64,000 nt of DNA from Streptomyces sp. ICBB 8177. GTDB lineage: Bacteria; Actinomycetota; Actinomycetes; Streptomycetales; Streptomycetaceae. Shown piece by piece: positions 26,892 through 31,379 of this stretch. The notes below the pieces were generated by a model, which did no database searches, was not told where the DNA came from, and worked only from the letters and a program-made list of their open reading frames with translations. The first letter of the stretch is position 1; every line of letters starts with the position of its first letter. The stretch is taken from positions 1,180,743 through 1,244,742 of the forward strand of contig NZ_NSKH01000018.1 in NCBI RefSeq assembly GCF_003144095.1, in the 5' to 3' direction. The translations under genes were made by a program, and so were the position numbers.

Positions 26892-28166
26892 CTACCCCAA
26901 CTCCTCCCCGTCCACCGGAAGTTCCGCCGTCAGGCGGAAGCCGCCTCGGGGGATCGGGCTCGGTGTCAGGGAGCCGCCTGCCATCGCGAGGCGTTCCTTC
27001 AGGCCCTTCAGGCCGTTGCCACTGCCTCCGCCGGCGCCTGAACCGTCGCCGTCGTCCGTGATGTCCAGCCGCGCGCGGCCCTCCTGCGTACGCAGTTCGA
27101 TCCGGCAGGACGACGCGCCGCTGTGCCGCACGACGTTCGTCACCCCCTCGCGCACCACCCACCCCAGCAGCGCCGCCGCCTGCGGGGGCAGCGGGGGGCC
27201 GGACTCCGTCACCGTCAGCTCGACGCCGGACGCCTCCAACGCCGAACGCGCGCGGTCCAGTTCCGTGGTGAGGCTGCCCTCACGGTAGCCGGAGACCGCC
27301 TCGCGGATCTCGGTGAGCGCCTGACGGGCCACCGACTCGATGTCCGCCGCCTGCCCCAGCGCCGCGTCCAGGTCGCGCGGCGCCAGCCTGCGCACCGCCT
27401 CCGCCTTCACCACGACCACCGACATGGTGTGCCCCAGCAGGTCGTGCAGGTCCCGCGAGAAGCGCAGCCGCTCCTGGTTGACCGCCGCACGCGCCAACTC
27501 CTGCCGCGCGGACCGCAGTTGGCCGATCACCTCGTACAGCGACAGGATCGCGCCGGTCACCAGGCCGGAGACGAACGTCGCGTACGCGATGCTCGCCGCG
27601 CTCCACAGACTGGCACCGCCGTGCCCGGCGACGACCCCGGCCGAGATGGCGAGCACCGCCACGATCTGGCCCAGGTGCCGCCCCCGGAAGACAGTCCCGC
27701 ACGCGAATGCCAGCATCACGATCAACGTGATCCAGTTGTGCCGGAATCCGATCGCGCCCGCGTAGGCGATCACCGCGCTCGCGCCCACCAGCACCTTCGG
27801 CGACACCCCGAACCGAGGCCGCTCGTCGAACGCCGAGATGACACTCATCGCGTACAGCGCGCAGAACGCGGCGAGCGCGAGCCACGCCAGCCATGCCGGA
27901 TGCGCCCGGTGGTGCAGCACGTCCGCGGCCGGGGCCACCATGATGGTCAGCCACGGCAGCATGATCCGGCTGTCCGGCCGCTTGATGCGCTCGATGTACG
28001 AATCGAGTTCCGCGCCCTGCAACGAGCCCAGGTCGTGCACCTCCAGGAGGTTCTGCCCGCGCTGTCGCGGCCTCCCGCGACCCCGCCGCGCCACCTCCAC
28101 GCGGCCCCACCACCGCCGCGCCTCCTGCCAGGCCCGCCGCGCCCGCGTCCCCCGGTTGCCCGCCAT
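26892..28166 (-). CDS. Sensor histidine kinase, HisKA_3 type (DesK-like)
   Basis: A 424-residue membrane kinase. A basic N-terminus is followed by about five TM helices (roughly 70-215). The dimerisation/phosphoacceptor motif is FSRDLHDLLGHTMSVVVVKA with His241. The ATPase domain has the N-box VVREGVTNVVRHS and the G-box NGLKGLKERLAMAGG. It is a DesK/NarX-class kinase and fits the DesR-like regulator at 21559-22200, which should be the next gene downstream but is 4.7 kb away. Start ATG at 28166. Confidence 0.9.
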   Translation of the reverse strand: MAGNRGTRARRAWQEARRWWGRVEVARRGRGRPRQRGQNLLEVHDLGSLQGAELDSYIERIKRPDSRIMLPWLTIMVAPAADVLHHRAHPAWLAWLALAAFCALYAMSVISAFDERPRFGVSPKVLVGASAVIAYAGAIGFRHNWITLIVMLAFACGTVFRGRHLGQIVAVLAISAGVVAGHGGASLWSAASIAYATFVSGLVTGAILSLYEVIGQLRSARQELARAAVNQERLRFSRDLHDLLGHTMSVVVVKAEAVRRLAPRDLDAALGQAADIESVARQALTEIREAVSGYREGSLTTELDRARSALEASGVELTVTESGPPLPPQAAALLGWVVREGVTNVVRHSGASSCRIELRTQEGRARLDITDDGDGSGAGGGSGNGLKGLKERLAMAGGSLTPSPIPRGGFRLTAELPVDGEELG

Positions 28167-28499
28167 CCGCCTCGTCCGTTCCTCGTGTCCTCGTGCCTTG
28201 GGCCTCGTGGCTCGTGCCTCGCGCCCTCGTGGGCCGGTCCCCGTACCGGCTCCATCATGGTGCGGGGGCGGGGGGCCGGGCCATTCGGCTCGATCGGGTG
28301 ACTCGCGGCCGGCGCGGGCGAGGATGCCCCGGCGCTCGCGAGCGGACGGCTACGTTGAACGAACGGGCGGCCACGTCGAGTGGGGGCCGGCCGCTGAAAG
28401 CGGTGCCGACCAGGCCGGATCACCGCCCCCGCGGTTCGGCGGCCCGCAGCACGTCGCACTGCGACCCAACCCCTCGCAGCAAGGAGTGCCACCACCGGC
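28167..28499. other. Divergent intergenic region, 333 bp
   Basis: Between the kinase and the VOC gene. Near the kinase there are six imperfect CCTCGTG repeats (28176-28232). A GGAG lies 14 bases upstream of the VOC ATG. No open frame with good coding character and no RNA gene was recognised. Promoters for both genes must lie here but no clear -10/-35 pair stands out. Confidence 0.5.
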
Positions 28500-28934
28500 A
28501 TGGACGTTCTGTTCATCACGAGCGTGGCGGCGGTCGTCGCCGACCCGCCGCTGAGCCGCAAGCTGTTCATCGAGGCGCTCGGGCTCCCTCTGGAGGGGGA
28601 AGGCGAGGGCTACTACTCCAGCGGGAACATCCCCGGCAGCAGGCACTTCGGCCTGTGGCCGCTGTCGCAGGCGGCCGAGGCGTGTTTCGGCACGGCCGAG
28701 TGGCCCGGCGACCGGGTGGTGCCGCAGGCGTCGATCGAGTTCGAGGTGGCCGACGCGGACGCCGTCACGGCCGCGGGCGCCGAACTCCAACGTGCGGGCT
28801 TCGAGCTGCTGCACCCTGCCCGCACCGAACCGTGGGGCCAGACGGTGGCCAGACTCCTCACGACGGACGGGCTGATCGTCGGGATCTCCTATGCGCCCGC
28901 TCTGCACGACGCCCGAGGGGACGATCAACGTTGA
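28500..28934 (+). CDS. VOC (glyoxalase/bleomycin-resistance) superfamily protein
   Basis: A 144-residue protein with the beta-alpha-beta-beta-beta layout of VOC proteins: FITSVAAVVADPPLSRKLFI at the start, PQASIEFEVADADAVTAAGA for the second half, and WGQTVARLLTTDGLIVGISY at the end. The usual metal-ligand His/Glu set is incomplete (HFGLWPL keeps a His), so enzymatic activity is uncertain; binding or resistance roles are possible. Start ATG at 28500. The stop lies inside a 26-bp perfect palindrome. Confidence 0.75.
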   Translation: MDVLFITSVAAVVADPPLSRKLFIEALGLPLEGEGEGYYSSGNIPGSRHFGLWPLSQAAEACFGTAEWPGDRVVPQASIEFEVADADAVTAAGAELQRAGFELLHPARTEPWGQTVARLLTTDGLIVGISYAPALHDARGDDQR

Positions 28935-28952
28935 TCAATATTGATCAACGTT
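28927..28952. repeat. 26-bp perfect palindrome with nested palindromes
   Basis: From 28927 to 28952 the sequence equals its own reverse complement: AACGTTGATCAAT followed by ATTGATCAACGTT. A second palindrome, GATCAACGTTGATC (28923-28936), overlaps it, and GATCAACGTTG occurs twice. It covers the VOC stop codon and is AT-rich in a GC-rich genome. It looks like a protein-binding site array or recombination target rather than a terminator. Confidence 0.85.
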
Positions 28953-28965
28953 GCGGCGGAGTCGA

Positions 28966-29078
28966 TGAGGCGCCCGGTGAGTCGATGAACTGCCTGGGTG
29001 AGTCAATGAACTGACTGCGTGGATCAACAAGTTGACCTGGGCCAACAAACGAGTTGACCTGGCGAATCAATGGATTGA
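28966..29078. repeat. Low-GC direct-repeat tract
   Basis: Paired imperfect repeats follow the palindrome: GGTGAGTCGATGAACTG / GGTGAGTCAATGAACTG (28976 on), CAACAAGTTGACCTGG / CAACAAACGAGTTGACCTGG (29024 on), and TCAATGGATTGATTG. Base composition is near 50% GC. No coding frame on either strand has streptomycete codon use. Confidence 0.65.
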
Positions 29079-29123
29079 TTGCGCATCAGGTTCGGCCCTT
29101 TGGGGGCCTGCGGAGCCTCCGGA

Positions 29124-29176
29124 CACGCCACGGCGGCCGGTCCGGGGACGCTCCCGGGGCCGGCCGCCGTGGCGTG
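29124..29176 (-). terminator. Strong hairpin terminator
   Basis: A perfect 17-base-pair stem (CACGCCACGGCGGCCGG / CCGGCCGCCGTGGCGTG) with a 19-base loop that can fold further. It lies 20 bases beyond the stop of the 52-residue gene on the minus strand and can serve both strands. Confidence 0.75.
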
Positions 29177-29196
29177 GTGGTGCGAGATCCGCCTGC

Positions 29197-29355
29197 TCAG
29201 CCGTTGTCCTGCTCGGGCCTGCGGTGCTTGCCATGGGCCGGGATGCCGGACTCGTCTGCGGCGGAGGCGGGACCACGGTGCTTTGGGCCCTCGGCTCCCA
29301 GGCCGGCCGCCTGCATGGCGCGGTCGTCGGTGACGTCGGTGCGGGCTTCGGACAT
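29197..29355 (-). CDS. Small conserved-type hydrophilic protein (52 aa)
   Basis: A short frame encoding MSEARTDVTDDRAMQAAGLG, then AEGPKHRGPASAADESGIPA, then HGKHRRPEQDNG. Support comes from the ATG at 29355 with GGAGAGA nine bases upstream, streptomycete codon bias (G/C in third positions), and a strong terminator right after the stop. The protein is charged, lacks cysteine and hydrophobic segments, and is probably disordered. Small proteins of this look occur widely in Streptomyces with no known role. It is monocistronic. Confidence 0.7.
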   Translation of the reverse strand: MSEARTDVTDDRAMQAAGLGAEGPKHRGPASAADESGIPAHGKHRRPEQDNG

Positions 29356-29489
29356 CAGAAGTCTCTCCGTCGGGATCGCTTACTGGGATGGCGAGTCGGG
29401 GCGCATGACACATGACGCGCCTTGACACAACCGCCCGTTGCGCACTGACGTGGCCGGGTCGTCCGGCTGTGCAGCCCCCGTTCTCGAGT

Positions 29490-31379
29490 CTAACCGTGGA
29501 CATGATCACTGAAACCGGCGGTCCGACTCGCGTCTGTCACGGTGGTTGTTGCTGAATCGTGGCGCGACGGTGACGCTGAATCGTTTGTGCGCACGGGGCC
29601 CTCCGCGGCGGACATCGGCGCCTGCTGGAGCGGGACGACACGGTTGGCCGGATGGTCGGACACCGGGTCCTTGGCCTGGTCGGGGCGCTGGTCCGGTTGC
29701 TCGGCGGGGGGCGGCGCGTCGGAGGGCCCCGGCGGGGCGTCGGGCGGCGCGGAGGCGGGCTGCTCGGCGTGGGATCCGGAGGTGCGTCGCGCGGCGGTCT
29801 CCACGCGCGGCCCGGCGCTTCGGCCGACCGGGGCAGGTCCCGCCGTGTCACCCTTCGCTTCTGAGGACGGGGCGGCGTAAACATCCCGCACGTCAGCCCG
29901 GAGGGTGATGTCGCGCACGCCGTACGGCTGTTCCGGCCGCGCGTACGGGAGGCGCAACGTGTCGCCGTCGCCCCACCACGCGCCGTCCACCAGCCACCCC
30001 GGCGGCGTGGGCAACGGCTCCAGCCGCCGGGTCGACGGGCGCCACAGCACCGCCCGGTTCCCGATCCGCAGCGCCACGCCGCATGCCTCGGGCGTCAGTG
30101 CCTGCCCCGGCTGCACGGCCAGCGGCACCGCGCCGGGATCGCGCAGGCAGTCGGGGAAGCGCACCGGGCGCGTGCTGCCCAGCACGCCCCAGCCCAGCCG
30201 GGCGTCCCCCGGCGCGTCGCTGCGCACCAGCAGCAGACCGCTGTCGGGGTCGGCGAGCAGCAGCCGGTCGTCGCTGTCCTCGGTGATCTGGAGCAACGGG
30301 TGCACGCTTCCGTCCGCCAGGTCGACGGCGACCGTCTTCGTCCGCCCGTCGATCTCCCGGTCGAGCGCCAGCGTCCGGCCTTCGCGGTCGAGCCAGATCC
30401 CGCCGTTGCAGCGGCCGGGTACCTCGGCGAGCGGGGCGAGCCCGGGGCCGCCGTGCACCAACCAGACCGTGCTGACGCCGTCCGTGCGGGCCAGCGCGTA
30501 CGCGGAACCGTCGGCCGCCGCGGGCAGCAGGCGCACCTGCTCGCCGTGTAGGAAGCCCACCGGCAGCTCCCCGGTGCCGGGGCCGGTGGGGTAGAGCAGC
30601 GCGAGGTCGTGGCGGTCGCCGTCGCCGGGGCGGCGGATGAGCACGCGGCCGTCCGGCAGCGGCAGCACCTGCGCCTCCGGCGACTCCGGCCGGGCGCCGG
30701 GCAGTCGCACGGTGTACGGCTCGGGCCCGCCCAGCGTCCAGCGTTCCGGGTACCAGCCGCCGTCCCCGTGGTCGGCGAGGCAGGCCCCGTACGAGCCGTC
30801 CCGGGTGACGGCGAACCCGATGCGGCGCGGAGTGGCGAGCGGGACTGCCGCGCGCGGGCGGGCCGAGACGGGCGCCCGCGGTGCCGGGGCCCCCGGGGGA
30901 GCGGTGCGGGCCGCGGAGGCCCGCGGGGAGCCCTGATCCGGATCGGGGCCGCGGGACGGCGCCGCCTCCGCCGCTACGGGCGCCGCCTCCGCCGGCACGG
31001 GCGCCGCCTCGGCTTCCGTCGGCACGGACGACGCCGCCGCCGACCCTGAAGACGCCGCCGCAGCCCCTGAAGCCGCCCCGGCTTCCGTCGGCGCGGGCCC
31101 GCCCGCCTCCGCTCCTGCGCCCGCAGACGCCTCCGTCGCGGCCCGTACCCCCGAAGACGCCTGCGCCCCAGCCCCCGAAGGCGCCTGCGCCCCAGCCCCC
31201 GAAGGCCCTTCCGCCGCCGTCCCCGCCCCCGAAGGCGGCGCCTCCGTTCGCGCGCGCCCCGGCGCGGCCTCCGCCTCCGAAGACCGCGCCTCCGGCATCG
31301 TGACGCGCAGCGTCCTCGTGCCGGTCAGGCCGAAACCGGTCGCGGCGGAATTCGCGGTGTGCGTGGCCAAGACGGTCAT
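29490..31379 (-). CDS. Large protein with beta-propeller-like core and disordered tails
   Basis: A 629-residue protein. Residues about 30-190 are a low-complexity Ala/Glu/Pro/Gly segment with repeats such as GAGAQAPSGAGAQASSG and AEAAPVPAEAAPVAAEAAPS. Residues about 190-510 alternate short strands (YTVRLPGARPESPEAQVLPL; STVWLVHGGPGLAPLAEVPG; RLLLADPDSGLLLVRSDA), consistent with a beta-propeller. The last 110 residues are again Pro/Ala-rich. No signal peptide. ATG at 31379 with GCAGGAAG upstream. Function not recognised; repeat tails suggest a scaffold or interaction role. Confidence 0.7.
   Translation of the reverse strand: MTVLATHTANSAATGFGLTGTRTLRVTMPEARSSEAEAAPGRARTEAPPSGAGTAAEGPSGAGAQAPSGAGAQASSGVRAATEASAGAGAEAGGPAPTEAGAASGAAAASSGSAAASSVPTEAEAAPVPAEAAPVAAEAAPSRGPDPDQGSPRASAARTAPPGAPAPRAPVSARPRAAVPLATPRRIGFAVTRDGSYGACLADHGDGGWYPERWTLGGPEPYTVRLPGARPESPEAQVLPLPDGRVLIRRPGDGDRHDLALLYPTGPGTGELPVGFLHGEQVRLLPAAADGSAYALARTDGVSTVWLVHGGPGLAPLAEVPGRCNGGIWLDREGRTLALDREIDGRTKTVAVDLADGSVHPLLQITEDSDDRLLLADPDSGLLLVRSDAPGDARLGWGVLGSTRPVRFPDCLRDPGAVPLAVQPGQALTPEACGVALRIGNRAVLWRPSTRRLEPLPTPPGWLVDGAWWGDGDTLRLPYARPEQPYGVRDITLRADVRDVYAAPSSEAKGDTAGPAPVGRSAGPRVETAARRTSGSHAEQPASAPPDAPPGPSDAPPPAEQPDQRPDQAKDPVSDHPANRVVPLQQAPMSAAEGPVRTNDSASPSRHDSATTTVTDASRTAGFSDHVHG

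Follow-up and report, generated by a model that had tools for sequence, protein, structure and literature searches.

The window, that is, the whole stretch of 64,000 nucleotides from Streptomyces sp. ICBB 8177 analysed here, carries on its plus strand an open reading frame of 144 aa (28500-28934), which we assign to the VOC (glyoxalase/bleomycin-resistance) superfamily from its match to Pfam PF00903 (E 3.5e-5; 24.6 bits at a cut-off of 20.6). The gene ends in GAC GAT CAA CGT TGA, and its stop codon (28932-28934) supplies the leading half of what is the first exact TGATCA core at this place. A perfect palindrome of 28 bp spans the stop (CAACGTTGATCAAT/ATTGATCAACGTTG, 28926-28953, no strand). 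It consists of two perfect 14-nt arms without a loop, has a GC content of 36% and is followed by CGGCGG. No perfect palindrome in the window is longer, and the runner-up has 20 bp. The sequence-only reading had already pointed to it, although with a length of 26 bp, which is too short.

The palindrome contains two TTGATCAA boxes, neither of which has a strand; box 2 (28941-28948) lies 10 bp past box 1 (28931-28938). A partial box, GATCAACG (28923-28930, no strand), is found 10 bp ahead of box 1, in the coding end of the VOC gene. The motif GATCAACGTTGATC (28923-28936) overlaps the palindrome, and 28923-28953 as a whole forms a GATCAACGTT direct repeat with a period of 10 and 3.1 copies.

Behind the palindrome, from 28956 to about 29080, there are about 130 bp of diverged repeats of 20-22 bp, which resemble worn relatives of one theme, TCAA...TTGA. 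Three direct repeats of 20-21 bp come first (GAGTCRATGA...; GTGAGTCAATGAACTG units, 28956-29017), largely opposite a gap in the sister species. They are followed by two copies of an AAC(A/G)AGTTGACCTGG repeat (29026-29040 and 29048-29062) and by three diverged dyads, TCAACAAGTTGA, CAACAAACGAGTTG and ATCAATGGATTGAT (29022-29079), recognised from the sequence, the repeat family and the alignment; TCAATGAGTTGATTGCG in the sister species is a relative of the last one. In the island as a whole (28922-29095) 91 of 174 bases are G or C (52%), compared to 72.7% for a 2.0-Mb part of this contig. Hence, the AT-rich island of overlapping motifs and direct repeats that had been described from the letters is confirmed. 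That it is not coding is true for most of its length but not for 28922-28934, where the last VOC codons and the stop lie inside the array.

Further downstream lies a GC-rich inverted repeat (29124-29176, both strands), detected by repeat scan and folding, with 25-nt arms that are 92% complementary. The segment 29110-29190 folds on both strands (-64.3 and -58.6 kcal/mol), and the hairpin is nearly identical in the sister species. It is predicted, and likely, to be a two-way terminator between convergent genes. The gene on the other side is a small ORF of 52 aa on the minus strand (29197-29355), whose start and end align in the sister species and which has no Pfam match. The island had been called not a normal terminator; this needs to be qualified, with a strong terminator-like hairpin so close downstream and a palindrome that also folds as RNA, if more weakly. 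Compared to an intrinsic terminator, the palindrome offers a stem-loop near the stop and no U run after the stem. A terminator scan of 28400-29500 gave no plus-strand site and one weak minus-strand site (29046-29031), and a sigma-70 promoter scan of the island gave none. Membership in a known RNA or gene, which the sequence-only reading had named as the finding that would speak against it, turned out to be half true: the first 13 bases of the island are gene, and an Rfam scan of 27500-30500 yielded no family at the gathering score and two sub-threshold matches at chance level. A plasmid collection contained nothing similar to the island itself; its matches were VOC genes only, at 34-37% query coverage. 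Upstream of a divergent histidine-kinase gene, at 28177-28231, the window also holds a CGTGCCT-type tandem repeat with a period of 7 or 22.

The island as a whole matches only itself in the window's own genome. Its palindrome, by comparison, is a member of a small set of AT-rich dyads (box GTTGATCAAC, core TTGATCAA) found at four unlinked places in two species. Our sample of the genus consists of these two genomes, that of the window and that of the sister species Streptantibioticus parmotrematis, recognised as such by a VOC stretch identical to the named locus L249. The exact TTGATCAA occurs 23 times in the former and 27 times in the latter. When all places with two or more exact copies within 40 bp are listed in both genomes, the clusters in the window's genome are confined to the 3′ ends of three genes, VOC, holA (DNA polymerase III delta) and a lamin-tail-domain (LTD) gene. 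In the sister species the clusters are the same three plus one in the leader of an agmatinase gene (arginase family; NCBIfam agmatinase above the cut-off). The search for related sites that had been proposed together with the palindrome was thus rewarded: the sister has the same 29 bp in place and a second site. At its VOC and agmatinase sites, 26-27 bases are identical to the window's palindrome, and holA and LTD have 28 bases in common at 93%. A search of both genomes for triple TGATCA added the holA and LTD 3′ ends in both and the leader of a polyketide synthase (PKS) gene in the sister. In that leader, between two modular-PKS-like genes, a 9-bp CTGATCAAC array fills the space (G001:C45, about 256029, L140; by eye).

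The three arrays at 3′ ends (1.00, 1.21 and 1.72 Mb in the window's contig) each contain the stop codon of a plus-strand gene and face a convergent neighbour on the minus strand. Their boxes are spaced by 10 bp at VOC, by 11 bp four times or more at LTD, and by 11 and then 18 bp at holA; at agmatinase the units are 10 bp long, by reading. In the sister, the agmatinase site is flanked by the start of the agmatinase gene on one side and by a divergent PucR-domain gene on the other. The corresponding leader in the window's genome contains, by reading, about 10 diverged 10-bp units, in which the dyad is kept and every exact TTGATCAA is lost.

Comparing the two species shows which parts of the sites are kept. 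At the VOC stop 29 bp, the palindrome and one more base, are identical and in the same place, while much of the nearby spacer differs; in the sister the perfect palindrome even extends to 36 bp (arms of 18). Of the window's repeat tail, about 105 bp have no counterpart in the sister, where the alignment shows a gap. After the holA stop 47 bp align with few changes, and the sequence beyond hardly aligns. At LTD the array, which is two units shorter in the sister, and the hairpin that follows are well preserved. Across VOC, holA and LTD, none of 54 bases in TGATCA cores has changed, compared to 6 of 36 in the spacers (Fisher p 0.003), a small count made by hand, from first to last core, in two species. 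The agmatinase arrays differ greatly between the species and oppose this pattern: both aligned cores carry a change, and adding them weakens the test.

Recognition of the sequence itself is suggested by the recurrence of one box at unlinked places, by cores that have not changed and by a spacing close to one helical turn. We tentatively favour the explanation that the palindrome is a clustered palindromic DNA site for a putative dimeric DNA-binding protein. The earlier suggestion of a binding array is compatible with our data and in this form narrowly our first choice. It is closely rivalled by two other explanations, a mutational origin and a hairpin in the mRNA. Dyads that outlive their sequence, as at agmatinase, are what one would expect from a hairpin or from mutations that perfect palindromes.

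How unusual the box is can be judged from the first 2.0 Mb of the contig, for which a simple codon model gives 1791 genes and 85% coding sequence (starts are approximate, stops exact). With 22 occurrences for 1.5 expected, TTGATCAA shows the greatest excess of all non-coding 8-mers whose strand-counted occurrences number at least 14. It is also the only one of 64 composition-matched palindromic 8-mers that forms clusters; two were counted in this test, holA and LTD, VOC having just two boxes within one mismatch. Both the enrichment and the clustering are driven by a few arrays. GATCAA ranks first among 1358 AT-rich hexamers by clustering. Perfect palindromes of at least 22 bp number 20 in the 2.0 Mb, of which seven exceed that of VOC in length and two (32 and 28 bp) are the only AT-rich ones. 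At 13 or more matched pairs there are 168 inverted repeats, with a median arm GC of 0.84; AT-rich arms (at most 55% GC) occur in 10 of them, namely four parS pairs, three TTGATCAA arrays and three others. The location of the arrays is less telling. All three lie in convergent segments, which make up 251 of 1360, but measured against the convergent share among gene 3′ ends or hairpins this gives p of about 0.05, which is not strong evidence.

It is possible that the arrays arose as mutational by-products. In this case short duplications and template switching would create palindromic arrays at the ends of genes and perfect them, and the arrays would be tolerated there and have no function. The large background of short arrays near stop codons supports such an origin. 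The non-coding part of the 2.0 Mb holds 335 merged short tandem arrays, 56 of which abut a stop. Where at least 25 nt of non-coding DNA follow a stop, the first hexamer is repeated within 45 nt at 41 of 1274 stops, with many unrelated sequences. That a part of the window's tail lies opposite a gap in the sister fits as well. However, four observations are left unexplained or point the other way. First, local duplication does not put the same 8- to 10-mer at four unlinked loci. Second, it does not explain why the arrays of the genus are dyads instead of direct repeats. Third, the hexamer is repeated at three of the eight stops that read TGATCA compared to 38 of the 1266 others (Fisher p 0.0016). 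Fourth, cores are unchanged and spacers changed. Other repeats at stops exist in the same contig. Between two convergent genes, a 15-bp TGATTCA array with five copies borders on a stop (G000:C11:19709-19787). Near 1268461 of the same contig a 24-bp stem of TGAGTCGCGA repeats encloses a gene's stop codon; among the 1789 stop-codon folds examined none is stronger (z -13.6).

In the orthologues that we read from other genera the arrays are absent. In a scan of named genomes 80 VOC loci were kept and the 20 most relevant were read, one of which is the sister; the other 19 all lack this palindrome at the stop. Streptomyces sp. WM6378, among these, shows just one TGATCA together with some GATCAA words further downstream. 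None of four VOC loci from the family that were read separately contains a TGATCA; three of the four coincide with loci of the set of 20. For holA, where 30 of 41 matches were read (the frame is doubtful in at least three, L346, L348 and L349), both members of the genus have three TGATCA each, and none follows the stop at 28 of 28 other loci. At agmatinase, 28 of 28 other loci lack TTGATCAA in the 300 bases upstream, and two have one TGATCA. Judging from two species, the genus itself seems to have gained the arrays. A PucR-type operator at agmatinase was considered and is weakened by the same 28 of 28 leaders from other genera without the array (300 bases); no such regulator was identified at the other three loci. 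A different stretch, GGAGGAAACGTACACTTC, recurs by eye in several agmatinase leaders of other genera.

Arrays of TGATCA do occur elsewhere in the family, at other genes. Triples with a period of 10 (at most one mismatch) are present in 26 of 394 genomes, compared to 1 of 394 for a reversed-pattern control. With gaps of 1-20 allowed, arrays are found in 174 of 394 genomes (control 3 of 394), many of them coding (12 of 29 loci examined). The control includes CTAG, a rare word in genomes of this kind, and other periods are found just as easily; we therefore dropped the idea of strict 10-bp phasing in the family, where no single period stands out. All 26 period-10 loci (L079-L104) are intergenic according to the gene caller, and 9 of them by script, or 12 by reading, start at a stop codon. 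Among the free-gap loci (L105-L133), 17 of the 29 examined are intergenic, and 12 of these 17 start at a stop. A convergent location is not a rule of the family either: 6 of 28 loci (including those of the genus itself) and 8 of 17, compared to 251 of 1360, amount to a weak excess at most, and three of the eight (L108, L110 and L111) are one gene pair in three species. This pair, in another genus, keeps its TGATCA array with differing numbers of units. In two convergent gene pairs from other genera (L116 and L130) the stops of both genes lie inside one array. By eye, one period-10 array is situated between ybaB-like and recR-like genes (L089, G008), and another, with a period of about 10, just upstream of a gyrB-like gene (L100, G298).

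When the spacers of family arrays are compared (20 loci with comparable spacers of 41 given), they agree in direct orientation at 130 of 164 positions and in inverted orientation at 45 of 164. Read in this way, family arrays are of varied period and mostly direct duplications, and genus arrays are dyads. The family data add to the case for a mutational origin, as do the different arrays at different genes in other genera, such as an unrelated TGAC array after holA in L354.

Another explanation, which we hold to be somewhat less likely, places the function in the mRNA. A long stem holding the stop codon (at agmatinase, the leader) would protect or expose the 3′ end, aid termination or serve as an RNase III site. 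Long dyad arms are indeed present at all four loci: 14 nt at VOC (sister 18), 16 at holA (sister 13 with one mismatch), 21 at LTD (sister 14 with one mismatch) and 30 with 28 paired at agmatinase (sister 12). Measured against dinucleotide shuffles, strong folds are found at agmatinase (z -9.3; sister -2.7; one truncated stretch -1.0), LTD (z -8.3; sister -3.2), holA (z -6.7; sister -3.2, but -1.7 in another window) and the VOC site of the sister (z -5.2). In the outer stem at LTD a C-G pair has become U-A in the sister, and the agmatinase leader has kept its dyad although most of its sequence was replaced. Against a hairpin, the window's own palindrome forms a 12-bp stem with z -2.3 (-2.1 in another run), at the weak end of the arrays, the repeat tail does not stand out (z -1.5), and a far stronger hairpin lies 170 nt downstream. 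Moreover, a hairpin has no need for the same sequence at four loci, and any array of palindromic units can fold. Of five arrays from other genera that were folded, three were unremarkable (z -0.5 to -1.2) and two folded clearly (z -3.3 and -3.9). Stop-codon hairpins with other sequences also occur in the window's genome, so that folding alone marks nothing special.

One could also argue that the arrays are stop-codon cassettes, since TGATCA reads TGA on both strands and a period that is not a multiple of three would halt read-through in all frames. The island does contain 18 stop triplets on both strands, compared to 10.9 (sd 2.2) in shuffled sequence, where 0 of 500 reach 18, and it has stops in all six frames. 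The family arrays that start at a stop (9 of 26 with period 10, 12 of 17 intergenic ones with mixed periods) and the two that hold both convergent stops fit this idea. Nevertheless, we consider it very unlikely. The next in-frame stop follows only after 18 codons at VOC, 60 at holA and 11 at LTD, instead of within a few codons as expected of a fail-safe stop. About 18% of non-coding TGATCA (15 of 82) are stops anyway, the leader arrays at agmatinase and PKS are left unexplained, and periods divisible by three are avoided to a small degree (5 of 39 spacings, 3 of 17 first spacings). In addition, a published study reports no selection for extra stops in bacteria, least of all in GC-rich ones (Ho and Hurst 2019, PMC6764699).

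An attachment site or the footprint of a mobile element, both proposed in the sequence-only reading, is the most improbable explanation, and we give it hardly any weight. Such sites do typically contain palindromes and direct repeats. However, the same 29 bp are in the same place in the sister, the nearest and only tRNA gene found in a scan of the window is 29 kb away, and the island has no match elsewhere in the genome. The attachment site is accordingly unsupported, and so is an insertion footprint as far as the palindrome is concerned; the approximately 105 bp of tail opposite the sister's gap do mean that a part of the island varies.

Returning to the protein-binding array, we infer that its effect would be as follows. 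A dimeric protein would occupy boxes one helical turn (10-11 bp) apart. Three of its sites would span borders of convergent genes, the first box enclosing the stop codon of the upstream gene, and protein bound there could block transcription from entering the neighbour. At the site in the agmatinase leader the protein might act as a roadblock or a repressor. Taken all the way, with the stop codon inside a protein box, a dimeric Streptantibioticus protein that would block polymerases from both sides and an agmatinase box that would be its operator, the proposal becomes unlikely.

Several points speak against a binding array altogether. No binding protein was found, and no adjacent regulator was identified at VOC, holA or LTD. 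A literature search with the exact words GTTGATCAAC and TTGATCAA found no description of the box as a binding motif, and none found a paper combining TGATCA, Streptomyces, tandem repeat and stop codon. For an architectural protein one would expect more than three or four loci, and this small number (exact clusters: three in the window's genome and four in the sister) also argues against a general nucleoid protein; a nucleoid-protein site, with Lsr2 as the example, had been one of the initial suggestions. The 3′ ends of genes are odd places for a regulator. The spacing is not constant (18 bp at holA, 9 bp in the PKS leader), and an agmatinase leader with a dyad but no exact TTGATCAA fits a hairpin or decay better.

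Either outcome would be of interest. If a protein binds, the genus has a small and defined set of sites, three of which hold a stop codon at the ends of convergent genes, and one can test directly how read-through transcription is controlled in a chromosome of high GC content. Should mutation alone account for the arrays, they would illustrate cleanly how perfect palindromes come about and are retained at stop codons, and would caution against taking every palindrome for an operator.

The arrays resemble several known systems. Hairpin terminators without a U-tract are called I-shaped in actinobacteria. Like the arrays, they are long perfect inverted repeats over or just after a stop, often between convergent genes. 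The median arm GC of the 168 hairpins in the 2.0 Mb is 0.84, however, compared to 0.36-0.38 in the arrays, which are made of a repeated box, and VOC has a separate GC-rich hairpin downstream. REP families, which have many copies, are also short palindromic sequences at gene ends and common to unlinked loci. In place of many dispersed copies there are three or four array loci here. The TGATCA arrays of other Streptomycetaceae share the core, the intergenic location and often the start at a stop codon, but they are direct duplications at other genes, with other spacers and periods.

The parS sites bound by ParB provide a further parallel, as AT-rich perfect palindromes in a GC-rich chromosome that come in close pairs, are intergenic and often lie between convergent genes. 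In the window's genome (G000:C11:350168-371325) they form close inverted pairs, three of four between convergent genes, and hairpin-capable dyads with arms of up to 32 nt. PMC7022226 gives the consensus for Mycobacterium and, with one base different, for Streptomyces coelicolor. This consensus, GTTTCACGTGAAAC (14 bp), differs from the array box GTTGATCAAC, and the palindrome CAACGTTGATCAATATTGATCAACGTTG does not match it. Nine of the 11 exact parS copies in the 2.0 Mb are found at 350-371 kb, where the arrays are not clustered, and unlike the boxes of the arrays, parS boxes are not one turn apart and hold no stop codon. By analogy, and not as proof for the arrays, the known AT-rich double palindromes of this chromosome are protein sites.
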